Assembly: GCF_030643805.1 (NCBI RefSeq)
Contig: NZ_CP094656.1
Span: forward strand, 3,844,001-3,908,000
Direction of reading: 5' to 3'
Length of the DNA stretch: 64,000 nucleotides
Source of the DNA: Alkalihalobacillus sp. AL-G
GTDB lineage: Bacteria > Bacillota > Bacilli > Bacillales > Fictibacillaceae
The position numbers and the translations under genes were made by a program. Below, in pieces: positions 2,793-47,128 of this stretch. The notes under the pieces were generated by a model. That model did no database searches. It was not told the DNA's origin and worked only from the letters and a program-made list of their open reading frames with translations. The stretch's first letter is position 1. Each line of letters begins with the position of its first letter.

Positions 2793-3095
2793 ATTTTAGT
2801 AACATTTTCCTGAATATTTTTTCGACAAACAGGGGAAAGTAACAGGTTATTTATAAAAAGAGGCTTTATTTCGGGTTAAAAACAGGGTTTAAGTTAATTA
2901 GAGGAAGACATTTAAACGATGTATTGGACATTTATTAAGGAATAAAAAGAGATGGTTCGTTTTCTGTGTAAAAATCATTCGTTAAATGCAATTTTAGAAG
3001 AAAAATCAAATTACTATTGAATTAAACTGACGTTTTGGGTGAATTATTCACTTCCACCTGATCTAATAACGATAATTCAAACATGGATTCCGATA
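2793..3095. other. Intergenic spacer upstream of spoIIQ
   Basis: AT-rich sequence between the spoIIQ promoter and the 21-bp repeat array. No gene, RNA motif or terminator was recognised. Confidence 0.6.
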
Positions 3096-3195
3096 TATCA
3101 ACCACGAATGGAAATATATCTACCACGCAATCCATTTTATCAACCACAAATCGAATTATATCGACCACTGAACACAATATATCGACCACGCATAG
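3096..3195. repeat. Five 21-bp degenerate tandem repeats
   Basis: The core TATCnACCAC recurs at 3096, 3117, 3138, 3159 and 3180, exactly 21 bp apart; the flanks between cores vary. On the minus strand the core reads GTGGTnGATA. The array lies outside both neighbouring transcripts, between the spoIID terminator and the spoIIQ promoter. Short open frames across it (VVDI or ISTT repeats) are a by-product of the period being divisible by three. Confidence 0.88.
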
Positions 3196-15751: not shown

Positions 15752-17017
15752 TTACACCTCCACGTCGTATGGTTCATAGTCTTTGCGCATCGGGTATCCA
15801 ACCCAATCATCCGACATTAAAATCCGGGTTAAGTTCGGGTGACCTGAAAAATGGATGCCTAGCAAGTCGTAAGCTTCCCGTTCAGGCCAGTTCGCCCCTG
15901 CCCATAAAGGTGTGAGCGATGCGATTTCCGGCTGATCTCGGTCCACTTTTACCTTGAGGGCAACCGGCTGTTCGTTTTTATAAGAGTAAAGATGGGTATA
16001 GACTTCCATATGCGTTTCAAAATCAGTACCGTGCAGCTCGCTTAAATAGTTGAAGTTAAGCTGCTCATTATATCGTAAAAATTCAGCAAGTTTATAATAG
16101 CCTTCTCGTTTTGCTATGAGTGTAGGTACATCCTTCGCAAGTCGATTAATGTACGAATCTTCTAAAATATCTTCTCCCAGATTGTCCTTGATGACCTTCA
16201 CATATTTATCTAGGAGCGGCTGGTTGAGTGACGGCTTTTCTTCTGCAGGCTCTTTTGCCTTCGCGCCTGCACCACCTGTTTTTGCCTTTGCTGCGGCGGC
16301 TGCTTTGGCTTTCGCTTTTGCTGCGGCAATCGCTTTCGCTTTCTCGTCATCGCCTGCTGGTGCCGATCCTCCACCCGCAGCTTTTGCTTTCGCGGCTGCA
16401 GCAGCTTTCGCCTTCGCTACTGCGGCTGCCTTCGCTTTCGCCTTTTCGTCGTCGGAGGCCGGTGCCGATCCGCCTGCTGCTGCGGCTTTTGCCTTTGCCG
16501 CCGCGGCTGCTTTGGCCTTGGCTGTGGCCGCTGCTTTCGCTTTTGCAGCTGCTGCAGCTTTAGATTTCGCATCAGCAGGATCTGGGGGAGCTTCGGCTTC
16601 GCCTGAATCAGCCGTTTCCTTTGCTGCCTTTTTCTCCGCTGCCTTGCGTTTTGCCTCTTCGACCGCCTTTTTCTTCGCTTCCGCTTTTTCCGCCTCGGTC
16701 ATTTCAGAGAACGGCTTTTCTGCTGGTGCTTCGGTTGCTTCGCCAGTTTCAGCTGCTTCTTTTGCCGCCTTCTTCTCCGCTGCCTTGCGTTTTGCCTCTT
16801 CGACCGCTTTTTTCTTCGCTTCCGCTTTTTCCGCTTCCGTCATTTCAGAGAACGGCTTTTCTGCCGGTGCTTCGGTTGCTTCGCCAGTTTCAGCTGCTTC
16901 CTTTGCCGCCTTCTTCTCCGCAGCCTTGCGTTTCGCCTCTTCGACCGCCTTTTTCTTCGCTTCCGCTTTTTCCGCTTCCGTCATTTCAGAGAACGGCTTT
17001 TCTTGATCATTGCTCAT
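15752..17017 (-). CDS. nuoC: NADH-quinone oxidoreductase subunit C with long repetitive N-terminal extension
   Basis: The 30-kDa subunit of the complex I peripheral arm. Only the last 155 residues or so (from about 264, [17 protein letters not shown]) form the NuoC domain, with the signature [20 protein letters not shown] and the C-terminal RKDYEPY. Residues 6-52 and 53-99 are two essentially identical 47-residue repeats beginning [20 protein letters not shown]; a third copy starts at 100 and runs into an Ala/Lys-rich tract with GGSAPA-type linkers up to about 262. The extension is predicted to be helical or disordered and strongly charged. The DNA repeat is 141 bp and in frame. I recall similar Ala/Lys extensions on NuoC of other bacilli, so it is probably genuine; its function is unknown. 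The ATG overlaps the nuoB stop by four bases. Confidence 0.95.
16619..17002 (-). repeat. In-frame 141-bp direct repeats in nuoC
   Basis: Copies at 17002-16862 and 16861-16721 are almost identical at the DNA level, and a third from 16720 stays similar for about 100 bp. The codon phase is kept (141 = 47 codons). The low divergence implies recent duplication or gene conversion. Confidence 0.9.
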
Positions 17018-17532
17018 TTATCCGTCACCCGCTTTCCAGTCTTAGCTTCATAACGGATTTTTTCTTGTAGCTTATTAATTCCATAGATTAACGCCGCAGG
17101 GTTCGGAGGGCATCCAGGGATATATACATCTACCGGTACGATCTGGTCGACACCTTTTACCACGGCATATGATTTTATGTATGGTCCACCCGCTGTTGCG
17201 CAGGAACCCATCGCAATAACCCATTTTGGCTCTGGCATTTGATCATACAAACGCTTTAGTACTGGTGCCATTTTCTTCGTAACAGTTCCAGAAACGATCA
17301 TACAGTCTGATTGACGCGGCGATGTTCGGAAAAAGGATCCGAATCGATCCAAGTCATAGTGAGACGCACCGGTCCCCATCATTTCAATGGCACAGCAAGC
17401 TAAGCCGAAAGTTAACGGCCAAATCGAATTACTTCGCGCCCAAGCTTTTACTTGTTCGAGCGTCACAAAAAATACGTTCTTTGAAAGTTCTTGTTGTTCT
17501 TCTGGTGAAATTTCGTCTAGTCTTACATCCAT
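17014..17532 (-). CDS. nuoB: NADH-quinone oxidoreductase subunit B ([4Fe-4S] N2)
   Basis: Peripheral-arm subunit that binds the terminal iron-sulfur cluster N2 and hands electrons to quinone. The cluster ligands are present: the adjacent pair in [10 protein letters not shown], one in PRQSDCMIV, one in [20 protein letters not shown] supplies a further conserved Cys region. At 172 residues it is normal. I use the ATG at 17532 (MDVRLDEIS), preceded by GAAGGTG, instead of the GTG seven codons upstream inside nuoA. It overlaps nuoA by 10 bases and nuoC by four. Confidence 0.97.
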
Positions 17533-17897
17533 TTTAACACCTTCTTTTTCCACGCATAGATGAGTCCGATCAGCAGCATGACAATAAAGATTCCCATTTC
17601 AATCAGTGCAAAAATACCGAGTTTTTCATAGGCTACGGCCCACGGATATAAGAAAACCGTCTCAACATCAAAAATAACGAACAATAACGCAAAAATATAA
17701 TAGCGCACATTGTACTGAACCCAGCTTTGATGAAAGGGCTCTATACCACTTTCATAGGTTGTCTGTTTTTCTTTTGACGGTTTATTCGGTCGTAAAATTT
17801 TACCTGCTGTCAATGCGACAAGCGGTAACAGAATGCCCAAAAGCAGGAACATCAAAACGACCAGGTAGTTGTTCTGATACAAGTGATAGAGCTCCAT
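17523..17897 (-). CDS. nuoA: NADH-quinone oxidoreductase subunit A
   Basis: Small membrane subunit of complex I, first gene of the operon; 124 residues, three helices. Family signature: YESGIEPF(HQSW), followed by [24 protein letters not shown] with its acidic residues. SD GGGGAGGTAG lies before the ATG. The operon promoter is about 65 bp upstream. Confidence 0.97.
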
Positions 17898-17961
17898 TGG
17901 CTACCTCCCCAGCAATCCATCTATTATTGTTAGAAAGTTTACAAAATTGTAATCGGTATCA

Positions 17962-17990
17962 ATTATACCAAATACCAATTTTTGTGTCGA
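17962..17990 (-). promoter_or_regulatory. SigA promoter of the nuo operon
   Basis: Minus strand TCGACA (17985-17990), 17-nt spacer, TATAAT (17962-17967): five of six matches at -35 and a perfect -10. The leader to nuoA is about 60 nt. Confidence 0.85.
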
Positions 17991-18097
17991 CAAGAGTTCA
18001 CGTATTAAAAAAGTCTTTCAACGTTGGAAAAGCGGTTTTAAAGACGTGGATTTACGGACGTAAATCATCATTATTGAAAATATTCGTTCTAGCAGTA

Positions 18098-18470
18098 GCC
18101 ACTGTCGATGATTCGTTACATCATTGTGCGCTTTCTGCTGTTTGATGGTACGAATAGACGTTATTCGTGACACCATTGTGGCTTTCTGCAGTTTGATGGC
18201 GCGAATAGATGCTATTCGTTACACCATTGTGCGCTTTCTACAGTTTGATGGCGCGAATAGATGCTATTCGTTACACCATTGTGCGCTTTCTGCTGTTTGA
18301 TGGCGCGAATAGATGCTATTCGTTACACCATTGTGCGCTTTCTGCAGTTTGATGGTGCGAATAGATGCTATTCGTTACACCATTGTGCGCTTTCTGCAGT
18401 TTGATGGTACGAATAGATGCTATTCGTTACACCATTGTGCGCTTTCTGCAGTTTAATGGTACGAAGCCGA
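18098..18470. repeat. Seven tandem 52-bp repeats with internal dyad
   Basis: The RCGAAT position recurs at 18150, 18201, 18253, 18305, 18357, 18409 and 18461, that is every 52 bp with one 51-bp unit. Each unit holds the dyad CGAATAG-ATG-CTATTCG, then ACACCATTGTGCGC and CTTTCTGCAGTTTGATGG. Central copies are nearly identical, outer ones more diverged. There are no unique spacers, so this is not a CRISPR array. The same family recurs at 29.05 kb. It lies upstream of the nuo promoter and beyond the neighbouring 88-residue frame. Confidence 0.95.
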
Positions 18471-18508
18471 TGTTTTGATGGACATAACACACGTATTCCT
18501 CATCGTTT

Positions 18509-18775
18509 TCACCAAAACGAATGATACACAATTGCTACAATATATAGGAAGCTCATGGTCATTATGTTTTTCCAGCGCTTCACCTCTTTAACCACGATCG
18601 AGAACGTACAATAATACAATAGAACAATCGTAAAAAAAGTGATCTCCGAAAAATCCAGCCATGCTTGCAACAATGTGGCAAACAGGATAAAAAGTAGATG
18701 AACACCTCCGTATTCATCTTTATATATAAGAATCACCCCTTCTGGATAGGAAAAGACCCCAGACTTCTCCATCAA
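18509..18775 (-). CDS. Hypothetical small membrane protein
   Basis: Open frame of 88 residues with two or three hydrophobic segments (about residues 27-42, 46-62 and 71-85) separated by a basic turn (KEVKRWK). I recognise no family. The start is doubtful: TTG-ATG at its head lacks a good SD, while a strong SD-like GGAGGTG lies inside the frame near 18695, suggesting that the translated part may be shorter. It follows the chromate-transporter genes with no clear promoter and precedes the 52-bp repeat array. It could be a remnant. Confidence 0.35.
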   Translation of the reverse strand: MMEKSGVFSYPEGVILIYKDEYGGVHLLFILFATLLQAWLDFSEITFFTIVLLYYCTFSIVVKEVKRWKNIMTMSFLYIVAIVYHSFW

Positions 18776-18829
18776 GGGTCATTTCAACTCGTTCATGTTT
18801 ACTATTCTATGTGGGCGAGCCTTCTCCTT

Positions 18830-19357
18830 TTACAAAAAGATCCCGCCATACGTTAAGGCACCAACGATTACGAACGCTGGGTGTATCTTCAACCGCACTA
18901 AAAACAGGTAGCTTGCGCCAACTAATAACAGTGATTGCAGCCAGCCGCTATTTTCATAGGAACTAAAAAAGAACTGGTAAGCCATGATTCCTAATAAAAC
19001 AGCGATCGTTGGACGGACGAGGATCGTCATCCACTTTACATTCTGAGAGTCTTTATATTTTAATAGAAGCTTTAAGAGTAAAATCATCAGCAGAAGCGAC
19101 GGAGCGACGGAAGCAAAAATTCCTACGACAGCACCAAACCAGCCACCTTGATCAAAGCCGATGAAGCCGGCCATTTTCGTTGCAATTGGCCCTGGCAATG
19201 CGTTTGCGAGGGCGAGCACTTCACTGAACTCCTCGGTTGACATCCACTCGTAGCGATCGACGACTTCATTTTCAACGAGCGGTATGGAAGCAGGACCTCC
19301 GCCATAACCGACGATTCCCGGGATAAAAAAGGCTAAAAAGATATGCCAAAATGTCAT
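18830..19357 (-). CDS. Chromate transporter, second half (CHR domain, YwrA/YwrB-like)
   Basis: Membrane protein of 175 residues with one chromate-transport (CHR) domain. The family signature GYGGGPASIPLVENEVV lies near residue 16 and LANALPGPIATKMAGFIG follows at about 50. In short-chain CHR transporters two adjacent single-domain genes together make the functional pair; this one overlaps its partner by four bases (ATGA). Members efflux chromate or, in some cases, have unknown substrates; sulfate analogues are the usual inference. It is the last gene of the peptide-transport/ggt operon. No clear terminator follows. Confidence 0.9.
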   Translation of the reverse strand: MTFWHIFLAFFIPGIVGYGGGPASIPLVENEVVDRYEWMSTEEFSEVLALANALPGPIATKMAGFIGFDQGGWFGAVVGIFASVAPSLLLMILLLKLLLKYKDSQNVKWMTILVRPTIAVLLGIMAYQFFFSSYENSGWLQSLLLVGASYLFLVRLKIHPAFVIVGALTYGGIFL

Positions 19358-19968
19358 CCGGACTCACCCGATTTCGTTTGAAGTCCCCATTTTCCGAAAA
19401 CGGCATAAAGAAGCAACAAACCGATCAGAATACCTGGGTGTACACCTAAGAATTCCACCAAAACGACCGATAGCACGATTAAAAACACAGCCTTCGTCCA
19501 TCCAAGTCCTTCACTACTCTTCTTCATGAATTGCCAGGTCAGCTGGGCGAGCATGAATCCGACGACAGGGATGACCGCATTCGTCATCCCTTGGACCCAC
19601 GGCTGATCTTTATAAGCACTAAGTGTTGTTAAAAGTGCCACCATCGCAACCACAGAAGGTAGAATCGTAGCGATCACCGCATTAACCAAACCGAATATTC
19701 CTGCGACCCTGTAACCGATATAGCCTGCTAGCTTTGTCGCGATTGGCCCAGGCAGCGTGTTCCCGAGCGCAAGTAAGTCCCCGAATTCATCGTCGGTGAA
19801 CCAACCGTATTGTTCAACCACCTCTTTATGGACGAGTGGGATCGAGGACGGTCCGCCGCCATATCCGAAAATCCCGACTCGGAAAAAAGCAGCAAATAAG
19901 CTAATGTGCTTATTCTTCTGCTTTTTTTCAGGTTCAGGTTGTTGTTTTACTTTTTCTAATGCTACCAT
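19354..19968 (-). CDS. Chromate transporter, first half (CHR domain, YwrB/YwrA-like)
   Basis: Partner of the preceding CHR protein, 204 residues. A charged N-terminus (EKVKQQPEPEKKQKNK) leads into six predicted helices with FGYGGGPSSIPLVHKEVV and LGNTLPGPIATKLAGYIG. The ATG lies inside the last codons of the gamma-glutamyltransferase gene (7-base overlap), so it is translationally coupled to it. B. subtilis has the comparable arrangement ywrA-ywrB near ywrD (ggt-like) and ywrC (Lrp-like), which supports a conserved functional group. Confidence 0.9.
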   Translation of the reverse strand: MVALEKVKQQPEPEKKQKNKHISLFAAFFRVGIFGYGGGPSSIPLVHKEVVEQYGWFTDDEFGDLLALGNTLPGPIATKLAGYIGYRVAGIFGLVNAVIATILPSVVAMVALLTTLSAYKDQPWVQGMTNAVIPVVGFMLAQLTWQFMKKSSEGLGWTKAVFLIVLSVVLVEFLGVHPGILIGLLLLYAVFGKWGLQTKSGESG

Positions 19969-21572
19969 GCGGCGACACTACCATCCGTTCTCGATTCGGT
20001 TCCGCCCATCAGCACACCTGTTTTCGGATCACGCCAAATGATCTGCCCGCGTCCAAAAGGTCCTCCATCCAATGCGACCTGAATTTGGTGTCCTTTTCGT
20101 GCTAAAGCTTGAGCGATGTGATTCGGGAAATTCGGTTCGACGAGGACCTTTTTGCTCTCCATCCATTGCCATCTTGGTGCATCAAGAGCAGCCTGTGGGT
20201 TCAGGTGGAAATCAATGGTGTTCATTACAACCTGAACGTGTCCCTGAGGCTGCATGAACCCGCCCATCACGCCGAATGGACCAACTGCCTCATCACCTTT
20301 CGTTAAAAAGCCCGGGATGATCGTGTGATACGTCCTTTTCCCGCCTTCGAGACGATTATCGTGTTCAGGGTCCATCGAAAAGTTATGTCCTCTGTTTTGA
20401 AGCGCAATTCCTGTTCCAGGTACGACGAGTCCGGAACCAAAGCCCATGTAGTTGCTTTGAATGAAGGAGACCATATTCCCATCTCCGTCAGCAGTTGCCA
20501 GATAGACCGTTCCTCCTTTAGGTGGTTCACCCGGCTCGGGTTGCCTTGCATGTTCGCCGATTAATTGACGACGTTCCTCAGCGTACTTCTCTGATAAAAG
20601 AGCATTCGCTGTACTCGTCATCGACCGCTCTTCGGTTACATATTTCAGTCCATCCGTAAATGCCAGCTTCAATGCTTCGATCTGTTTATGGTAGGTATCG
20701 AGCTCTTCCTTCCCGGAAAACTCGTAGCCCTTCAGCATGTTCAATGCCATCAAGGCGATAATTCCCTGGCCGTTCGGCGGTATTTCCCAAACTTTATGAC
20801 CACGGTACTCAACACCGATCGGATCTACCCACTCCGGCTTATACGCTGCAAGGTCTTCCTTTCGTAAAAACCCATCATACTTCTTGGAAAAAGCATCAAT
20901 TTGATCCGCTAAACTCCCTCGATAAAAGGATTCAGCATTCGTTTCAGCGATTTCACGTAACGTGTTCGCGTGACCTTCTGAGCGCCAAACCTCACCGATT
21001 TCAGGTACGCTTCCATTAGGTGCAAATGTCTCAAACCAGTGTTGGAATTCATCATCGGTCAGTTCAGACTTGAAGCGATCAGCCGCAGCATTCCAAAATC
21101 TTCCTAACACAGGTGAGACAGGGTATCCTTCCTCTGCGTACTCGATTGCCGGCTTTAAAACCTCGGTTAAAGGAAGTGTGCCGAATCGTTCTGATAAGGC
21201 CGCCCATCCACCTGGAACACCTGGAACAGTAACTGGAACCCAGCCATATTTCGGGATATCCTTGTGTCCCTTTTCCTTTACAGCTTCGATTGAAATCGAC
21301 CTTGGCGAGGGTCCGCTCGAATTCAACCCGTGCAGCTTACCTTTCGTCCAGACGAGCGCAAACGAATCCCCTCCGATTCCGTTCGATGTCGGCTCGACAA
21401 CGGTTAAGCATGCTGCCGTCGCAATGGCGGCATCAATGGCATTCCCGCCTTTTTTCAATATATCAAGACCGGCCTGTGCGGCAAGCGGTTGCGATGTTGC
21501 AACCATCCCCTTATTAGAAAATGACGTCATTCTCTGTGATGGATATGGGTTATATAGGTGATCTGACTTCAT
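19962..21572 (-). CDS. Gamma-glutamyltransferase family protein (YwrD-like)
   Basis: Ntn-hydrolase of the gamma-glutamyltranspeptidase family that cleaves gamma-glutamyl bonds, for example of glutathione. The 536-residue protein has the N-terminal GGNAIDAAIATAACLTVVEPTSNGIGGDSF region (here split by context) and the autoprocessing site GGTVYLATADGDG with Thr355 as the predicted nucleophile; PFGVMGGFMQPQGH lies in the small subunit. There is no signal peptide, so it resembles cytoplasmic YwrD rather than secreted GGT. It follows a complete peptide ABC transporter by 30 bp and overlaps the chromate transporter, which suggests import and hydrolysis of gamma-glutamyl peptides. That substrate is inference. 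Confidence 0.9.
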   Translation of the reverse strand: MKSDHLYNPYPSQRMTSFSNKGMVATSQPLAAQAGLDILKKGGNAIDAAIATAACLTVVEPTSNGIGGDSFALVWTKGKLHGLNSSGPSPRSISIEAVKEKGHKDIPKYGWVPVTVPGVPGGWAALSERFGTLPLTEVLKPAIEYAEEGYPVSPVLGRFWNAAADRFKSELTDDEFQHWFETFAPNGSVPEIGEVWRSEGHANTLREIAETNAESFYRGSLADQIDAFSKKYDGFLRKEDLAAYKPEWVDPIGVEYRGHKVWEIPPNGQGIIALMALNMLKGYEFSGKEELDTYHKQIEALKLAFTDGLKYVTEERSMTSTANALLSEKYAEERRQLIGEHARQPEPGEPPKGGTVYLATADGDGNMVSFIQSNYMGFGSGLVVPGTGIALQNRGHNFSMDPEHDNRLEGGKRTYHTIIPGFLTKGDEAVGPFGVMGGFMQPQGHVQVVMNTIDFHLNPQAALDAPRWQWMESKKVLVEPNFPNHIAQALARKGHQIQVALDGGPFGRGQIIWRDPKTGVLMGGTESRTDGSVAAW

Positions 21573-21601
21573 ATAACAATCCCTCTTTCTCTTATAGACT
21601 T

Positions 21602-22576
21602 CTAAACTTCATGACAGGCAACAAAGTGATTCTTTTCAACTTCCCGCCATACTGGTCTTTCTTCTTTGCATTGCGCTGTTGCGATAGGACAGCGGGTATG
21701 GAACGGACACCCCTTAGGTGGATTCGCTGGATTTGGTAGATCTCCTGCTAATTTTATCCGGTTTTTTTTACGTCCTGGAATCGGCCGTGGAATCGCCGAT
21801 AGCAGGGCTTTTGTATAAGGATGTAACGGATTTTCATAGATTCGGTCTGATGGGGCTAGTTCTGCTGTATTGCCAAGGTACATAACGAGCACACGGTCAC
21901 TGATATGACGGACGACACCTAAATCATGCGAGATGAACATATAAGTCAGTTGATGCTTTTCCTGAAGTTCCTTTAAAAGTTTGATCACTTGAGCTTGAAC
22001 TGAAACGTCTAGCGCCGATACCGCTTCATCGCAAACAATAAAGGAAGGGTTCAACGCAATCGCCCTGGCAATCCCGACTCGCTGTCTCTGACCACCACTG
22101 AATTCATGTGGATAACGGTCATAATGATCTGCCTTTAAACCGACTTCATCAAGCAATTTCAAGACACTATCTTTCCGTTCTTTTTTCGATAAGGAGGTAT
22201 GAATGATAAACGCTTCTTCAAGGCCATCCCCAATCCGCTGCCTTGGATTCAATGACGCATACGGATCTTGGAATATCATCTGCATTTCTCGTTTAAACGC
22301 TTTGAGCTTTCTATCGGGGAGCGTTCCGATTTCCTGTCCTTTAAAAACGATTGATCCTTCCGTTAACGGCTCAAGGCGAAGAACAGCACGGCCGAATGTT
22401 GATTTTCCACAGCCGGATTCTCCTACTACTCCGAGTGTTTCCCCTTCATAGAGATCAATTGAAACATCTTCAACTGCCCGAACATGTCCCTGTACCCTCT
22501 GAAGTAATCCACCTTTTATCGGATAGTATTTCTTGACGTTATTGATTTGAAGAAGCGGTTGCTGCAGATTCATCAT
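21602..22576 (-). CDS. Oligopeptide/dipeptide ABC transporter ATP-binding protein (OppF/DppF-like)
   Basis: Cytoplasmic ATPase of a peptide importer, 324 residues. Walker A is GESGCGKST, the signature is FSGGQRQRVG, Walker B ends VCDEAVSALD, and the H-loop is FISHDLGVVRH. A C-terminal oligopeptide-transporter extension with CPFHTRCPIATAQC is present. The start is the first ATG of an ATG-ATG pair at 22576, with GGAGGTGG 6 nt upstream; a longer upstream frame lies inside oppD. It overlaps oppD by 38 bases, a sign of tight coupling. Confidence 0.93.
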   Translation of the reverse strand: MMNLQQPLLQINNVKKYYPIKGGLLQRVQGHVRAVEDVSIDLYEGETLGVVGESGCGKSTFGRAVLRLEPLTEGSIVFKGQEIGTLPDRKLKAFKREMQMIFQDPYASLNPRQRIGDGLEEAFIIHTSLSKKERKDSVLKLLDEVGLKADHYDRYPHEFSGGQRQRVGIARAIALNPSFIVCDEAVSALDVSVQAQVIKLLKELQEKHQLTYMFISHDLGVVRHISDRVLVMYLGNTAELAPSDRIYENPLHPYTKALLSAIPRPIPGRKKNRIKLAGDLPNPANPPKGCPFHTRCPIATAQCKEERPVWREVEKNHFVACHEV

Positions 22577-23549
22577 GATGCTCCACCTCCTGTAACCAGC
22601 ATCTAACAGTATGGTTGTTATCGACTTTAAACGTTTCTGGTGATTGATTGCGACATTTCTCTGTTGCAAATTCACAACGATCATGAAAACGGCAACCGGT
22701 TATTTTTTCATTTAAGTTCGGCAGTGTCCCAGGTATCGCTTCTAATTGATGATTACGGTCATCCACATTTGGAACAGATTTCAATAATCCTTTTGTATAC
22801 GGGTGCTGAGGGTTTGTGAATAGACTATCAACATCACCTTCCTCTATCTTTTCACCGGCATACATCACCATAACCCGGTCTGCAACTTCAGCGACAACAC
22901 CCATATCGTGGGTGACCATGACGACACCCATCCCTAATTCTTCTTTTAAATCATCAATCAGATCTAAAATCTGAGCTTGGATGGTCACATCAAGCGCTGT
23001 GGTCGGTTCATCTGCAATCAATAAGGAAGGGCGACAAGCTAAAGCGATTGCAATCATCACCCGTTGCCGCATCCCCCCGCTTAATTCATGTGAATATTGA
23101 GACATCCTTTTTTCAGGATAAGGAATGCCTACTTGTTTCAATAATTCGATTCCTTTTTCATGTGCTTCACGTTTTGATAGCTTCTTATGAATTATCAATG
23201 GTTCTCTGATTTGGAACCCTACTGTGAAAACAGGATTTAAAGCAGTCATCGGTTCCTGAAAAATCATCGACATTTTGTTGCCGCGAAGTTTACGCAGCTC
23301 TTCTTGTGGCATTTTGGATAATTCTTGCCCCTCCAGCTGTACGGAGCCTTCACTGATTTCTCCGTTACTCGGTAGAAGACCCATTAAGGATAGTGAGGTA
23401 ATACTTTTACCACACCCTGATTCTCCAACAATGCATAATGTTTCACCTTTATTGACAAAAAACGAAACCCCGCGGACGGCTGACAGTTTCCCATCAGCCG
23501 TTTTAAATTTTGTAACGAGGTTTTCAACTTTAAGCAATTGCTTTGACAT
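22539..23549 (-). CDS. Oligopeptide/dipeptide ABC transporter ATP-binding protein (OppD/DppD-like)
   Basis: Second ATPase of the peptide importer, 336 residues: Walker [12 protein letters not shown], signature [10 protein letters not shown], Walker [14 protein letters not shown]-loop [10 protein letters not shown], and the C-terminal [15 protein letters not shown] motif typical of Opp/Dpp ATPases. It starts 7 bp after the binding-protein stop and overlaps oppF. Length and motifs are normal, so the transporter should be functional. Confidence 0.94.
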
Positions 23550-23556
23550 GCTAACC

Positions 23557-25110
23557 CTACTCTCTGTGAACGTTATATAGTGACCATTGACCTGTAGGAT
23601 CCATCTTCAAGCCTTTTACTGATTTATCATAAGCTGCCGTTACAATGCCGTGACTCATGACTACCCACGGTGCATCCTTTACAGCAATTTTATTTGCCTC
23701 GACCAGCTTCTGTTTACGCTTTTCTTGGTCGACGATGACACGTGATTCGTTTACGAGCGTGTCAAACTCAGGATTTGAGTATTGCGTACGGTTTGAAGCA
23801 CCGATGTTATCGCTGTGCAGGTTCGGATAGAGAAGCTCACTTCCGTCAGCTGTGCTGTTTGTCCAGCCGAGGAAGGTTATATCGAAATTACCTTTTTTAC
23901 TAACATCAAGGAATGTACCCCATTCCATCATTTCGATTTGCGCATCAAGACCTACTTCCTTTAATTGCGCCTGGACGATTTCAGCCATTTTCGTATAGGT
24001 CGGTGTATTGGCTACCAACATTTTAACCGTTGCACCTTCATAGCCATTTTCCTTCAGAATTTGTTTCGCTTTTTCCGGATCGTATTCATAACCTAATTTT
24101 TCGACGGATTCATCATAGCCGAATACTTTCGGTCCAATGATACTATTTGATTGAACACCTAATCCACTGAGTTTCTTAACGTATGCTTCACGGTTAATCG
24201 CGTGTGCAACCGCCTGTCTAAAAGGAAGCTCATTCGTAGGAGCTTTGCTCATATTAAAACCGAGATAAGAGACCGGTGTTCCTTCCTTTTTCATAATCTC
24301 TACACTTTCTATAGACTTAAGACGGGGGAGATGCTCAGCTGTAAGTCCATCAATAAGTTGAACTTCACCCGTTTGAAGCATAGAAACCGCTGTATTGACT
24401 TCAGGTACGACTTTAAACGTTACTTTTTGAAGCTTTGGCGGATCCTGCCAGTACTCTTTATTCGCTTCTAATGTGATATGGTCACCTACTGCCCATTCAA
24501 CAAACTTGAAAGGACCTGTTCCAACTGGTTCTTGATTCAATTTACCTTTTTTGTCTGCAGCCGGACTGACGATCGAAGCATTCGTATGGGATAATGCCGC
24601 AAGCATCGGACCATAAGGTTCTTTTGTTTTGATGACAACCGTGTACTCATCTTTCACTTCGATAGATTCAATAGGTTCTAATAGTGAAGCACGAGGTGCC
24701 GCTGTATCGGGATCTCGGAATTTATCAAAGGTATACTTGACAGCTTCTGCATTAAAGTCAGTACCATCATGGAACTTGATTCCTTCTTTTAACTTGATTA
24801 CCCATGTTTTCGGATCTGGATTCTCATATGATTTGGCGAGTTTCGGTACAATTTCCATCGTTTCTGGATCTCGTACGAATAATGTTTCATAAATTTGTTC
24901 AATGACACGTGATGAAACTGAGTCATTGGTTTCAATCGGAGACAAACCAACTGCTTTTGTTGTAGAAGCATACGTCAACTCCTGAGGTACATCTCCTCCA
25001 TCATCTTCTCCACCTGAAGAACTCTTTCCTGAACTGCTACAACCTGCTAAAGCAAAAGATACTATTAAAAGAACAGTTATTAGACTTGTTAAAAAACGTT
25101 TACTTTTCAT
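23557..25110 (-). CDS. Peptide ABC transporter substrate-binding lipoprotein
   Basis: Family 5 extracellular solute-binding protein (OppA/DppA/GsiB type), 517 residues, anchored as a lipoprotein: signal segment LITVLLIVSFALAGCSSS with lipobox LAGC near residue 23. A Ser/Gly/Asp linker follows, then the two-lobed binding domain with LTYASTTKAVGLSPIETND and GIKFHDGTDFNAEAVKYTF. The gene sits between permease and ATPase genes, as in Bacillus App-type clusters. Substrate specificity cannot be read from sequence; the linked ggt gene makes glutathione or other gamma-glutamyl peptides a reasonable guess. Confidence 0.92.
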   Translation of the reverse strand: MKSKRFLTSLITVLLIVSFALAGCSSSGKSSSGGEDDGGDVPQELTYASTTKAVGLSPIETNDSVSSRVIEQIYETLFVRDPETMEIVPKLAKSYENPDPKTWVIKLKEGIKFHDGTDFNAEAVKYTFDKFRDPDTAAPRASLLEPIESIEVKDEYTVVIKTKEPYGPMLAALSHTNASIVSPAADKKGKLNQEPVGTGPFKFVEWAVGDHITLEANKEYWQDPPKLQKVTFKVVPEVNTAVSMLQTGEVQLIDGLTAEHLPRLKSIESVEIMKKEGTPVSYLGFNMSKAPTNELPFRQAVAHAINREAYVKKLSGLGVQSNSIIGPKVFGYDESVEKLGYEYDPEKAKQILKENGYEGATVKMLVANTPTYTKMAEIVQAQLKEVGLDAQIEMMEWGTFLDVSKKGNFDITFLGWTNSTADGSELLYPNLHSDNIGASNRTQYSNPEFDTLVNESRVIVDQEKRKQKLVEANKIAVKDAPWVVMSHGIVTAAYDKSVKGLKMDPTGQWSLYNVHRE

Positions 25111-25172
25111 ATCATTTTTCCTCCTATGTGATGAACGTGTTAAAAATAAGATTAATTTGGTGAACCTTGTTG

Positions 25173-26072
25173 TTAGCTCAAATCCATATTAGGATCTAAA
25201 GCATCACGCAGCCCATCGCCAACGACGTTAAAAGCAAATACAACAAGCATGATTGCAATTCCAGGTACAATTGTCATGTGTGGTGATGTCCACATAAAGG
25301 ATTGCCCTGCAGCGATCATCGCACCCCATTCGGGTGTAGGCGGCTGTGCTCCCAACCCTAGAAAGCTAAGGGCTGATGTCGAAAGGATAGCGGTTGCCAT
25401 CCGCATCGTCGCGAACACGATTATCGGCGCCATGCAGTTTGGTAAAATATGTTTGATTAAAATACGACTATTGCTTGCACCCAAGGATCTCATCGCAACA
25501 ATGTACTCTTGTTTTTTTACCGACAGCACACTACCTCTTACGATACGGGCACAGGTTGGTATTGACCATATACTGATTGCGATCATTACGTTAACTAGAC
25601 TTGTGCCTAGCATTGCAATAATCAACATTGCTAACAATATTCCTGGAAAGGCGAACAATAAATCTACAAATCTCATGATCAACCCATCTATTTTTCGAAA
25701 ATAACCTGATATAAGTCCCAATGTAATACCGCCTGCAAGACCAAGAATGACGGAAACGATTCCGACAACTAATGATATTCTGGCACCATATGCGATTCGG
25801 CTCCACATATCCCTTCCATAGTTATCGGTCCCTAGCCAATGACCTTCTGAAAATATAGGCAATTCGCTATTTGACAACGTTTGATCAGCCGGATGATAAG
25901 AAGTGATCCATGGGGCCAAAACAGCCGTAAGAACCTGGATTAATATGATGATTAAACCAAATACAGCAAGTCGGTTTTTCAGCAGTTTTTTTATGGTAGC
26001 AACAAAGATCTTTTGTTTCTTTTTCTCTTTGTTTATTAGCTTGGAATTGGCAACAATTACTTCACCAGCCAT
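25173..26072 (-). CDS. Peptide ABC transporter permease (OppC/DppC-like)
   Basis: Inner-membrane permease of 299 residues with a basic cytoplasmic N-terminus, six helices and the ABC permease EAA loop (AMRSLGASNSRILIKHILPN) at about 195-215. The N-terminal HPADQTLSNSELPIF segment followed by WLGTDNYGRDMWSRI is characteristic of the DppC/OppC family. AGAGAGGAGG lies immediately upstream of the ATG, slightly closer than ideal. Gap to oppB is 22 bp. Confidence 0.93.
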   Translation of the reverse strand: MAGEVIVANSKLINKEKKKQKIFVATIKKLLKNRLAVFGLIIILIQVLTAVLAPWITSYHPADQTLSNSELPIFSEGHWLGTDNYGRDMWSRIAYGARISLVVGIVSVILGLAGGITLGLISGYFRKIDGLIMRFVDLLFAFPGILLAMLIIAMLGTSLVNVMIAISIWSIPTCARIVRGSVLSVKKQEYIVAMRSLGASNSRILIKHILPNCMAPIIVFATMRMATAILSTSALSFLGLGAQPPTPEWGAMIAAGQSFMWTSPHMTIVPGIAIMLVVFAFNVVGDGLRDALDPNMDLS

Positions 26073-26094
26073 TCCATTTCCTCCTCTCTATCTA

Positions 26095-27036
26095 TTAGTC
26101 GTAACTTATCCTCGGGTCAATCACTGCGTAAACGATATCAACGACCAAGTTTACTAGGACAAATAATGTTGCAACGAGTAAAACGGAACCTTGCACCATC
26201 GGAAAGTCCCTTGCTGCGATTGCTTCAATCATCAATCGTCCAACACCGTTGATTGCAAAAACTTGCTCTGTAATGATCGTACCTCCTAATAAGAATCCAA
26301 AATTCAGCCCGATGACTGTTATTACCGGAATCATTGCATTTCTTAATGCATGGACCCCTATTACAGCCTTCTCTTTAACACCCTTCGCTCTAGCTGTTCG
26401 AACATAATCTGCTCGAATCACTTCTAACATTGTTGAACGGCTCATTCGGGCGATCATCGCTGCTGATCCAGTACCTAAAGTGATTGCAGGCAAAATCAGC
26501 TGCTTCATCCCTTCGATTGTCCAGAACGGTGCACTTAATCCCCCAACAGGCAGCCACTGTAAATTTACAGCGAAAATAATTATCAGAACTGTCCCAAGCC
26601 AAAAGTTCGGTATCGATATTCCTGCCAATGCAATAACTGTACTGGATACGTCCAGCCAAGAATTTTGCTTTAATGCTGAAATTATACCTGCAATTACTCC
26701 GATAACCACTGCAACGATCATACTGGCAATCGCAAGGTTTAAAGTATTCGGAAATCGATTGATAATTGCATCACTAACCGATTGTTTTGTCTGATATGAA
26801 AAACCTAAATCCCCTTGAACTACACCAGCCATATAATTTCCGTATTGAACAAGAACGGGATCATTCAACCCCAAGTTATCCCTGATTGCTTCAATATCGG
26901 AATTTGAAGCTGTCGGTCCACCTATAATGCTTGCAGGGTCACCGGGTGACAGATGCATACTCATAAACACGATAAATGAGATTCCAACGAGTAAAAATAT
27001 TAACTGAACAAAACGTCTAATTATAAGTCCGATCAT
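26095..27036 (-). CDS. Peptide ABC transporter permease (OppB/DppB-like)
   Basis: First gene of the transporter operon, permease of 313 residues. N-terminal MIGLIIRRFVQLIFLLVG, then SPGDPASIIGG, and the EAA loop VRTARAKGVKEKAVIGVHALRN are diagnostic of OppB/DppB. The ATG at 27036 has GGAGGTGA 5 nt upstream; the open frame extends 42 codons further but that part is AT-rich and lacks an SD. A TATAAT sits about 190 bp upstream. Confidence 0.93.
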   Translation of the reverse strand: MIGLIIRRFVQLIFLLVGISFIVFMSMHLSPGDPASIIGGPTASNSDIEAIRDNLGLNDPVLVQYGNYMAGVVQGDLGFSYQTKQSVSDAIINRFPNTLNLAIASMIVAVVIGVIAGIISALKQNSWLDVSSTVIALAGISIPNFWLGTVLIIIFAVNLQWLPVGGLSAPFWTIEGMKQLILPAITLGTGSAAMIARMSRSTMLEVIRADYVRTARAKGVKEKAVIGVHALRNAMIPVITVIGLNFGFLLGGTIITEQVFAINGVGRLMIEAIAARDFPMVQGSVLLVATLFVLVNLVVDIVYAVIDPRISYD

Positions 27037-27298
27037 TTCTTCACCTCCTAAGTTGTTTAAAGACCAAATGTTAACTAATCCGACAAAAATAATTTTTTTG
27101 TTATTTAACACTATCCATTTTTTACCTTTCATTACGGAATTAAAATAATTATTTTTAATCATTTGTTAGTCAAAATTTGATTTTTTATTTATTTTTGTTT
27201 CTAAAGTGAATTATTAATGATTATAAAGGAAATATTCCGAAAAATCTACCTTATATACAAATAATTAAAACTTATCCGAAAATTCCTTCTTTTTGTAC
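27037..27298 (-). promoter_or_regulatory. Upstream region of the peptide transporter operon with candidate promoter
   Basis: AT-rich leader. Minus strand TATAAT at 27220-27225 is a good -10 but the -35 (TAGATT at 17 nt) is poor, suggesting an activator-dependent promoter. The adjacent Lrp/AsnC gene is a natural candidate regulator. No riboswitch or attenuator was recognised. Confidence 0.45.
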
Positions 27299-27339
27299 AA
27301 AAAACAAGCCGAGAAAGGGATTTCCTTTTCCGGCTTGTT
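27299..27339 (-). terminator. Terminator of the lrp/asnC gene
   Basis: Hairpin AACAAGCC...GGCTTGTT with an inner AAAGG/CCTTT, followed on the minus strand by TTTTTT. It lies 60 bp downstream of the regulator stop and separates it from the transporter operon. Confidence 0.85.
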
Positions 27340-27398
27340 TCAATTTAGCTGTTCTATTTTCGTTTTGTTAAGCTTGGACATTGGAAAGCACGAATCAA

Positions 27399-27848
27399 CT
27401 ATAGTTTCAATCCTGATCGACTCTTGAATCTTCTCAAAAGGATATGACTCTCCACTCGGGTAATCCCTTCAAGTGCATATAACTCATTGTTAATAAATGA
27501 TTCCAATGCAGAGAAATCATTAACTAGTACGTGCATGTGCAATGTGCTTGGCCCAGTCATTTGATAACAGCTAGCAACACTTGGATTACTAGCCAACGCT
27601 TCTGCCACTTCTACTAGATAACTCGGTTCACAATCTACTTCAAAAAAGGCAGAAACGGTTTTACCTACTTTTTCAGAATTGATCATAACACTGAACTTTT
27701 CTATCACTCCATTTTTACGAAGCTGATTAATTCTCTCTCGAACTGATACTCTTGATAAATTAAGCTCTTTCCCAATGTCTACATAAGACATCCTGCCATC
27801 TTGAGAAAGCAATTCTAATATTTTCTTATCAATCTGGTCAACTTTCAT
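27399..27848 (-). CDS. Lrp/AsnC family transcriptional regulator
   Basis: DNA-binding regulator of 149 residues: helix-turn-helix at about 8-55 (DQIDKKILELLSQDGRMSYV, then LNLSRVSVRERINQLRKNGVI) and a RAM ligand-binding domain in the C-terminal half (PSVASCYQMTGPSTLHMHVLV). Start chosen at ATG 27848 with GGTGAT 4 nt upstream; in-frame ATG and GTG codons two to four codons earlier are alternatives. It is a separate transcription unit just upstream of the peptide/ggt/chr operon on the same strand. B. subtilis YwrC, also Lrp-type, sits beside ywrD-ywrB-ywrA, which supports it being the local regulator. Confidence 0.9.
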   Translation of the reverse strand: MKVDQIDKKILELLSQDGRMSYVDIGKELNLSRVSVRERINQLRKNGVIEKFSVMINSEKVGKTVSAFFEVDCEPSYLVEVAEALASNPSVASCYQMTGPSTLHMHVLVNDFSALESFINNELYALEGITRVESHILLRRFKSRSGLKL

Positions 27849-27989
27849 CCCCATCACCACACAAATGTAAATAAATTCATTAGACCTATTATATATGTTA
27901 ACTTATGTTTTTCGCAATTCTGATATTTTTTACGAATTTGGAGTGCTAGTTCATATAATGGAGAGAGGAAGTAGTTTTACTCAGAGCTG

Positions 27990-28901
27990 TTAGTCATAAT
28001 AGGAGGATTTTCCACAACTTACGAGCTTATAGTTTTTCGTAAGGATGCTACGGATTGTTGTCCGGGATTTGATGATATTACACCAGTCGTGCATCAAGCT
28101 GATAGTAATATTTTTATCGGGAAATAGCAGACTCAGTTCATTTGCAGTTCTTAAAACAGCTGAAGTTATATGCTCTTTGCATCCGCACGATTTACAGATC
28201 AGCGTAGATTTTTTCAGTTCAGAAAAGAATGTGTGACAGCTTGGACATAGAATCCCTTTTTCAAGTTGTTCATAGGAATATTCAGGTATACGGGTAAACC
28301 GTGAATTCTCTGAATGAAGGGAGCGTATTTGATGTGCCAGTTTGATTTGGTTTTTTGTGATTGTCGGGGGTTTCTTTGAGAGATTATCGATAAAACGATT
28401 GATTTGTGTTGGAAAAATGAAAGTAGGATCTATAGGGGCTTGATATAAGTAGAAGTCGGGGTTCACGAAGACGAGATAGGTTTCTATTGGAGATTGGTAT
28501 CCAAGTTCTTTGATTAGCTGACGAAATAAGGATTCACTTCGGTTCAGTTGTTGTAACGGGTTTTTAATTTCTTTTTTAGAGTTTTTATTATACCACCGAT
28601 CACCTTCTACATAACTATCACCCCCATAGTTTTTGACATCTATTGGATAAATTGCACCTTTGAAAATCAGTGTCGTATCAATTTGAAACACGCTATTGTT
28701 CATCTCCAGCAAGAGGTCATTTAGTACGAGGCAGTTATTGGGGAGGGTTATTAACCATTTGTCGAACTTCAGTTCACCTTGGAATCCCTTTTCAATGTTC
28801 CAATAGTAATTGGATTCTTTTTCCGATAAAGTCATTCGGGCATTTAATGACCTCATGGTTATTAACTCCTTTGTTTCTTTACGAGATTTGAAAAATTCCA
28901 T
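27990..28901 (-). CDS. Nuclease-related domain (NERD) protein with C-terminal zinc ribbon
   Basis: Protein of 303 residues with a NERD domain at about 35-150: KGFQGELKFDKWL, then VFQIDTTLIF and YPIDVKNYGGD, the positions where restriction-like nucleases carry their acidic and lysine active-site residues. A four-cysteine zinc ribbon (CPSCHTFF...CKSCGC) lies at about 220-245, followed by a helical C-terminus. NERD proteins are widespread in bacilli; cellular role unknown, nuclease activity inferred from fold. Start at ATG 28901 preceded by AAGGGTG. It is not in an evident operon. Confidence 0.85.
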   Translation of the reverse strand: MEFFKSRKETKELITMRSLNARMTLSEKESNYYWNIEKGFQGELKFDKWLITLPNNCLVLNDLLLEMNNSVFQIDTTLIFKGAIYPIDVKNYGGDSYVEGDRWYNKNSKKEIKNPLQQLNRSESLFRQLIKELGYQSPIETYLVFVNPDFYLYQAPIDPTFIFPTQINRFIDNLSKKPPTITKNQIKLAHQIRSLHSENSRFTRIPEYSYEQLEKGILCPSCHTFFSELKKSTLICKSCGCKEHITSAVLRTANELSLLFPDKNITISLMHDWCNIIKSRTTIRSILTKNYKLVSCGKSSYYD

Positions 28902-29040
28902 ATCCCACACCCTTAGTCGATTAATTTTTTCATATCTATCACTTTTTATTTTAAGAATTGTTTCTTGTTTTTACAAGGTATAGTTCTTTTTTCGGTAAAA
29001 TTGGTGGCACACAATGTTTCGTAGTGAGGAAATCGTTCCT

Positions 29041-29240
29041 TTTTGGGCACTTTTTACAGTTCGATGGTACGAATAAGGGCTATTTCGTGCTATCATCGTC
29101 CGCTTTTTGCAGTTTGATGGTACGAATGAGGGCTATTCGTGCTATCATCGTCCACTTTTTGCAGTTTGATCGTACGAATAAGGGCTATTCGTGCTATCAT
29201 CGTCTGCTTTTTGCAGTTTGATGGTACGAATGAGAGCTAT
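29041..29240. repeat. Four 52-bp tandem repeats, same family as at 18.1 kb
   Basis: TACGAAT recurs at 29068, 29121, 29173 and 29225 (spacings 53, 52, 52). Units share TTTGATGGTACGAAT, GCTATTCGT, a CAT-GT block and CTTTTTGCAG with the array at 18.1 kb, but have their own subtype consensus. They lie between the atp operon terminator and the NERD gene start, outside both transcripts. Confidence 0.92.
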
Positions 29241-29312
29241 TCGTTTCCTTATTGTTGATTACTTGATGCAAGTTGTTAGCACGAGTAAAAGCTTACACTC
29301 CCTATAAAATTG

Positions 29313-29349
29313 AAAAAAGCACCTGAGAAAAATTACCCCAGGTGCTTTT
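29313..29349 (-). terminator. Terminator of the atp operon
   Basis: Perfect 11-bp stem AAAAGCACCTG/CAGGTGCTTTT, followed on the minus strand by T residues; it starts 8 bp after atpC. Confidence 0.95.
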
Positions 29350-29356
29350 CTACATT

Positions 29357-29779
<423 letters not shown>

Positions 29780-44208: not shown

Positions 44209-44380
44209 TCGATCCAAAAAGGAGGGGGCTGACTCAAAAGAGAAATCCCTTCAAATTGTTTCAGTCTTCTTACCATTGCAAGAAGTTTTATATAATTGAT
44301 GGTAAATTCAAGTTATAAGTGCAAATTCTTATTTAAGGAAGTGTTTACGGCCATTAATTAAAGGGAAAATGGAGGTTTCT

Positions 44381-44450
44381 CGTGTAACTTAGATTTTTCT
44401 CGTGTAACTCGGTTTTTTCTCGTGTAACACATGCTTTTGGCGTGTAACTT
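44381..44450. repeat. Four 20-bp tandem repeats
   Basis: CGTGTAAC occurs at 44381, 44401, 44421 and 44441, exactly 20 bp apart, mostly preceded by TTTTTCT or TTTTGG. On the minus strand the unit reads GTTACACGAGAAAAA. Confidence 0.9.
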
Positions 44451-46976: not shown

Positions 46977-47128
46977 GAGGATACCTCCACCGGAACTCTT
47001 CTCGAAACCGTCCTCATGAACCCGCTTTGAGGACACTTCCACTGGATTTCTGCTCGAAACTGTCCTCATAAACCCGCTCTTGAGGACACTTCCACCGGAT
47101 TTCTGCTCGAAACTGTCCTCATAAGGGC
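46977..47128. repeat. Three 52-53-bp tandem repeats, second family
   Basis: GAGGAYAC occurs at 46977, 47029 and 47082 (spacing 52 and 53). Each unit reads GAGGACACTTCCACYGGA, then CTGCTCGAAAC, TGTCCTCAT and AACCCGCT; GAGGACA and TGTCCTC form a dyad. The last unit is truncated after TGTCCTCATAA. The array lies between the spoIIR promoter and the prmC stop. Confidence 0.92.

Follow-up and report, generated by a model that had tools for sequence, protein, structure and literature searches.

NERD-domain genes adjoin fixed-length tandem repeats in Bacillales: a candidate nuclease partner for the 52-nt satellite upstream of nuoA in Alkalihalobacillus sp. AL-G

REP and BIME elements are palindrome-bearing repeats dispersed outside genes. 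Some copies of such a family stand next to the family's own gene for a DNA-processing enzyme, the RAYT (TnpA-REP), which belongs to the Y1 tyrosine (HUH) enzymes. Closer to the locus considered here are the tandem repeats of constant length (52 nt and 20-21 nt) and variable sequence that Subirana and Messeguer described in 2021 in Bacillus and other Firmicutes (PMC8161180). In the available part of that report these repeats are species-specific and non-coding, carry short sequences and their reverse within one unit, and are left without an explained function, nucleoid proteins or small RNAs being suggested by the authors, who note that evidence for a Cas-like protein interacting with the repeats is lacking. 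According to the accessible text of PMC9040797, the function of the NERD domain had previously been unstudied in bacteria; SmdA, the membrane protein described there, has NERD similarity without several of the conserved NERD residues, and that text makes no mention of repeats. A figure legend in PMC10910872, the part of that paper used here, places NERD among putative CRISPR auxiliary genes, which may reflect arrays of the present kind having been mistaken for CRISPR. No paper tying the NERD domain to tandem repeats was found by title or abstract in a literature search that excluded most subscription papers, so that priority is unproven.

The window analysed here is a 64,000-nt stretch of the genome of Alkalihalobacillus sp. 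AL-G, a single contig of 4,155,898 bases, and the array upstream of nuoA (Table 1) is a member of the published 52-nt class. The class is defined in the available text of PMC8161180 by a period of 51-53, at least four copies and a non-coding position, and by several families per genome that are alike in length, different in sequence and joined by common short motifs; the array lies in an intergenic gap, and such families are present in its genome. Likeness to the published satellites thus extends to period, non-coding position, number of families per genome, a motif and its reverse within the unit, and host group, and both published periods, 52 and 20-21 nt, occur in this genome. The difference is that the available part of that report names no partner gene, whereas here each period has its NERD clade. 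What is new is the candidate partner gene: the array itself belongs to a known class, and the gene-repeat pair is a new variant.

Tandem Repeats Finder (TRF) gave a period of 52, 94% matches and a score of 605 for this array, and ATTCGT starts at 18111, 18163, 18214, 18266, 18318, 18370 and 18422 (spacings 52, 51, 52, 52, 52 and 52), which bears out the tandem array and the near-identity of central copies reported in a first-pass annotation. The units abut, with no unique spacers between them, and CRISPR had been correctly excluded; such arrays resemble CRISPR in being tandem, dyad-bearing repeats beside a nuclease gene, but the array here has no spacers. The statement that every unit carries the dyad went too far: five units have it exactly, a sixth has it with one mismatch, and the outermost copies lack it. 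Inverted repeats are nevertheless a property of the class, since for 39 of the 76 units compared with dinucleotide shuffles the best one in the unit did better (p ≤ 0.05); the unit of this array gave p = 0.069 in the same test.

Table 1. Positions in the window of the repeat arrays, the NERD gene and neighbouring features.
Feature	Position	Strand	Remarks
nuoA	17523..17897	-	downstream neighbour of array 18111-18465
52-bp tandem array, 6.8 copies	18111..18465	.	dispersed, not gene-adjacent, member of the repeat family of the window NERD gene
Six dyads CGAATAG-N3-CTATTCG	18151..18426	.	at 18151 (one mismatch), 18202, 18254, 18306, 18358 and 18410 (exact)
NERD-domain protein, 306 aa from GTG at 28910 (in-frame ATG at 28901)	27990..28910	-	PD-(D/E)XK nuclease fold, zinc ribbon, winged-helix-like C-terminus (predicted); proposed repeat partner
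52-bp array, 3.7 copies, between atpC and NERD gene	29050..29244	.	same family as 18111-18465; upstream of its NERD gene
Terminator-like hairpin of atp operon, between atpC and array	29310..29349	-	
atpC	29357..29761	-	upstream neighbour of array 29050-29244
Array of period 52-53, 2.8 copies, other sequence	46977..47124	.	most like the repeat family of the NERD gene at genome position 3737821

The array lies 214 bp upstream of the nuoA start. Its earlier placement upstream of the nuo promoter is reasonable, because the ~100 bp adjoining nuoA align at 90% with P. decolorationis (BLAST match as far as 17999) and the remaining gap does not. The nearest named loci by nuoA come from Pseudalkalibacillus and related Bacillaceae; the syntenic gap in P. 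decolorationis, the nearest named relative, contained no array, and seven close-relative loci had no array of period 49-54. A sequence search with the array DNA found a relative in none of 59 other genomes, and by sequence search alone the matter would have ended there.

Three further 52-bp arrays, all different in sequence, had been claimed for the window, of which we found two. One of them has a sequence of its own, but the other, 10.6 kb from the array upstream of nuoA, is 77% identical to it and belongs to the same family. This second array adjoins a gene that the first-pass annotation had missed, a member of the NERD family PF08378 (67.5 bits against a Pfam gathering cut-off of 22.1), and the earlier idea of a protein-binding element is to that extent supported, since a candidate DNA-reading partner is encoded in the same window. 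P. decolorationis has atpC, array and NERD gene in this order too; the palindromic core of its unit, GCACGAAT-GGCCCT-TATTCGTGC, closely resembles the core in the window, and the linker is changed.

NERD genes are tied to arrays well beyond this locus. Four relatives have 27 NERD matches between them, and reading every one showed 51-53-nt arrays in the flanks of 10, 20-21- or 41-nt arrays in those of 13 and none at 4. To these were added the best NERD match per genome in 60 relatives, 54 of which had one (29 new loci), and 20 loci by score order, the latter blind to arrays. When 78 NERD proteins were placed in a maximum-likelihood tree, the 52-nt label needed a single change and filled one side of one branch (support 100/100; 100% of 200 bootstrap trees). 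The clade so marked, here called clade C, holds the window gene and had an array in 14 of 14 tree rows, against 0 of 64 other rows (one locus, L164, was counted as 52 on a top TRF row of 156, or 3 × 52). A second group of 43 rows had 20-21-nt-type arrays within 250 bp in 32 and none in 11, and a third group of 20 rows had no 52- or 20-21-nt array, although one adjoined a 36-nt array; a long-branched row, L212, with a 41-nt array, was placed with this third group.

A profile of 15 clade C proteins (A1) was then searched in 40 of 80 named genomes, among them the nine in which the nuo locus had given an array-like row, and matched at <1e-60 in 34 of the 40. The best clade C locus was read in 30 genomes and had an array in every case, with a period of 51-53 in 29 and of 50 in the remaining one; L240 and L207 are the same locus and count as one. 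A draw of 398 genomes of the phylum supplied eight further loci. In total, 50 of 51 distinct clade C loci carried a 50-53-nt array at the gene, the exception being cut by a contig end, and the result was similar for the 36 loci outside the clade definition and profile (35 of 36). By comparison, control ORFs of 200-450 aa had a 52-nt array within 250 bp in 6 of 124 cases in the four relatives, 5 of 154 in our own-genome sample (6 of 155 before removal of the NERD gene at L092 9329-10246) and 6 of 294 across all sampled relatives. The arrays sat downstream of the clade C stop at 48 of the 51 loci (median gap 44 bp over all downstream arrays) and upstream at four, two of which had arrays on both sides, so that the window gene, with its array upstream, is unusual. 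Copy number ranged from 1.9 to 24.2 and was below three in four of the 50; a few arrays were much diverged.

Among 53 arrays adjoining clade C genes the period was 52 in 37, 51 in 9, 53 in 6 and 50 in 1, and the earlier suggestion that unit length is under constraint is upheld. The mean periods for the two array-linked clades, 51.93 (n = 46) and 20.60 (n = 24), are near five and two helical turns and stand in a ratio of 2.52, which adds some weight to the five-turn idea of the first-pass annotation, although these are two values only. Array sequence barely tracked the protein within clade C (protein against unit similarity, rho 0.14 over 1225 pairs). Clade C was not found beyond the host order: the 4 of 398 genomes of the phylum draw that had it, our own included, all belong to the same order, and nine same-class genomes had 14 NERD matches in 7 genomes and no 52-nt array. 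In one same-class genome, G268, four NERD loci (L325, L329, L334 and L335) adjoin arrays whose periods include 21, 31, 43 and 49, several of them near whole helical turns. Some NERD copies were broken or in pieces (L185, L210 and some profile matches, e.g., in G082, G089, G096 and G098), which suggests gain and loss of these genes.

The window protein has the motif residues and the fold of PD-(D/E)XK enzymes and is a predicted nuclease. E43, Q73, D75 and K90, together with four zinc-ligand Cys, were kept in 50 of 50 clade C proteins. Judged by secondary structure, the C-terminal region is probably winged-helix-like, and no fold match of the protein covered this part. A zinc ribbon and such a C-terminal region are common to both array-linked clades, whose C-terminal regions are homologous (hhalign probability 98.4, E = 6e-15, 93 columns). 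Possession of the region after the zinc ribbon went with arrays: a 52- or 20-type array stood no more than 250 bp from the gene for 47 of the 58 NERD proteins that have it, compared with 1 of 23 without it (L198, 247 aa), plus one adjoining the 36-nt array.

Within the AL-G genome there are nine NERD matches, of which four have 52-nt arrays beside them, two more have 20-21-nt arrays nearby and three have nothing. Evenly stepped stretches outside the window contained five ~52-nt arrays in 383,690 bases, extrapolating to ~54 per genome, and a NERD gene adjoined two of these five (L092 and L094), as it does the window array next to atpC. Of the own-genome arrays read, 17 belonged to three NERD-linked families: three arrays in that of the window gene (the array upstream of nuoA, L003 and the array next to atpC), eight in that of the NERD gene at 1772172 and six in that of the NERD gene at 3737821. 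The repeat family of each gene is therefore dispersed outside genes, as in REP/RAYT systems. When unit consensuses were compared, 16 of 122 within-genome pairs scored at least 60 (three arrays of the within-genome set, L003, L151 and L152, having been found by similarity), whereas none of 1006 between-genome pairs did so (maximum 52, 99th percentile 33). Of 13 dispersed arrays found without similarity in five genomes in which all clade C genes had been read, eight scored at least 40 against a NERD-linked array of their own genome; L088, L122, L132 and both arrays of L131 fell below 40, and for three of these five the best score came from another genome. None of 25 dispersed arrays had a NERD-like stretch in flanks of up to 3 kb, which suggests that arrays spread without the gene.

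Arrays also went with clade C at the level of genomes. In 1,223,690 sampled bases of 15 clade-C-positive genomes, our own included, there were 15 arrays, with eight genomes showing none, and in 667,177 sampled bases of 13 clade-C-negative genomes there were 0, a contrast with P of about 0.0015 if arrays are independent, which is too small because the genomes are related. Left out of this contrast were G004, with a partial clade C match at a contig edge (G073 is a like case), and a 54-nt array in L297 whose period is a multiple of three and which looks coding. In support of the first-pass annotation, the 25 dispersed arrays lay in 18 co-directional, 6 convergent and 1 divergent gap, and thus avoided divergent promoter-promoter gaps, which make up 113 of 555 background gaps of at least 60 bp; the array upstream of nuoA was assigned by hand to the co-directional gaps, a + strand ORF there being spurious. 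Three TRF rows (L017 9019, L059 9076 and L068 7519) that were coding or irregular had been dropped from the placement and fold tables. The next ORF past the NERD-linked downstream arrays was convergent in 32 cases, co-directional in 7 and not found in 9. Our own scan, which had no shuffled control, placed terminator-like hairpins between the upstream stop and the array for 17 of 24 arrays. An array followed atpC in five named genomes as well as in the window, every one of different sequence, a position that is over-sampled because the named loci were chosen around nuoA.

We give an even chance to the reading that gene and array form a pair like REP/RAYT, in which the nuclease would bind its own repeat and help to amplify and spread it. 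The NERD/array pair and REP/RAYT are alike in having palindromic, dispersed extragenic repeats and an enzyme gene beside some copies of its own family; they differ in that the partner here is a PD-(D/E)XK NERD protein, in place of a Y1 (HUH) transposase, and the repeats form head-to-tail arrays of fixed period. The AL-G genome has two Y1_Tnp matches, with no 52-nt array in the 1.5 kb flanks of either. We infer binding, cleavage and repair-driven spread by the NERD protein along the following lines. The master locus of the family upstream of nuoA would be the window NERD gene with its adjoining array; the protein may read the dyad of its cognate unit via the zinc ribbon and the C-terminal region, and copies ~five helical turns apart would lie on one DNA face, which would fix the period regardless of sequence. 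The PD-(D/E)XK domain might then nick or cut repeat DNA, and repair from other copies would amplify, homogenise and spread the repeats to tolerated sites past gene 3' ends. This reading builds on the observed linkage of gene and array, the period that goes with the clade, the families common to gene-adjacent and dispersed arrays, the conserved catalytic and zinc residues and the placement. Against it count the five dispersed arrays without a match in their own genome, the eight clade-C-positive genomes in whose sampled stretches no array appeared, the gene-adjacent arrays that are short or much diverged, the near-independence of array sequence from protein similarity and the upstream position of the window array. 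A wider proposal, which we hold tentatively and rate as somewhat less likely than not, is that NERD nucleases both act on and produce the fixed-length satellites of Bacillales. Each clade would serve as a ruler of about five or two helical turns that makes and spreads tandem repeats of its own period from arbitrary sequence, unrelated to transposases, CRISPR or slippage.

The strongest competitor, though in our view an unlikely one, extends the first-pass idea of a chromosome-organising element to the protein: NERD would assemble where phased arrays lie past the transcription units and there shape the nucleoid or DNA topology to the benefit of the host, and selection would keep the arrays. Near-integral helical periods, the location in co-directional or convergent gaps, the hairpins upstream of most scanned arrays and the recurrence after atpC would all suit such a role. 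It is not supported by the distribution of the arrays, however, since array position is not conserved among close relatives, as the empty gap of P. decolorationis and the seven arrayless loci show, and 43 of 60 related genomes manage without clade C; furthermore, the invariant nuclease residues count against it, because a purely structural protein would not need them. At the other extreme, the arrays might be neutral slippage satellites tolerated in safe gaps, with which variable copy number and avoidance of divergent gaps would agree as harmless DNA, but slippage predicts neither the linkage to clade C (50 of 51, against about 5% for control ORFs) nor a period that goes with the NERD clade, and this is the reading we disfavour most.

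A role in defence or addiction, with the nuclease acting on foreign or own DNA and the arrays serving as decoys, self-marks or antidote-like sinks, appears improbable to us. NERD-like stretches do match PglW and MADS6 weakly, and the CRISPR auxiliary listing in the legend of PMC10910872 points the same way; those matches lie far under the curated cut-offs of the two families, however, and a decoy does not require dozens of dispersed arrays. Yet more improbable, if a shade less so than neutral slippage, is a transcribed hairpin RNA, one idea of the discoverers of the class. The inverted repeats within units would allow it, and transcription of 52-nt repeats has been reported for B. coagulans in the available parts of PMC8161180 and PMC8625621. 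Mean folding z was only moderately low (-1.26 and -1.31 for the two strands; 29 arrays, three of them later dropped), and stem variants (57 G.T, 54 A.C, 5 compensatory and 89 other) showed no G.U bias, so that the strand bias expected of RNA pairing was absent. No Rfam family matched at E ≤ 1 in window positions 17800-29500. A purine-rich strand as a sign of transcription amounted to a trend only: by family alignment, 8 of 10 co-directional own-genome arrays were sense to the upstream gene and 2 were antisense, which speaks against a transcribed hairpin.

The near-constant link to one gene, whose clade goes with the repeat length, makes the function of constant-length, arbitrary-sequence repeats directly testable. 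Should the proposed mechanism hold, nucleases would join the means by which repeats arise and spread, and a role would be found for NERD proteins, which are common in Bacillaceae, as the matches in our relatives indicate, and have barely been studied.

Shorter repeats were seen as well. By eye, TATATCAACCACG occurs both in a 21/42-nt tandem array at window positions 3093-3190 and in the 21-nt array that adjoins the NERD gene at 3436249 (L165), so that the window array may belong, as a dispersed copy, to one of the 20-21-nt NERD families; a 20-nt tandem repeat of 2.7 copies at 44376-44428 was assigned to no NERD family. At about 3.83 Mb in the genome, near a weak Y1_Tnp match, a 20-nt array of 11.9 identical copies (L344 2020-2257) has a unit that, judged by eye, reverse-complements the 20-nt unit adjoining the NERD gene at 613593 (L160). 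Repeats of 24, 102 and 141 bp at window positions 16280-17003 fall within the ORF 15752-17017, which encodes a long NuoC-like protein, and lie ahead of the part for the 30 kDa-subunit domain.
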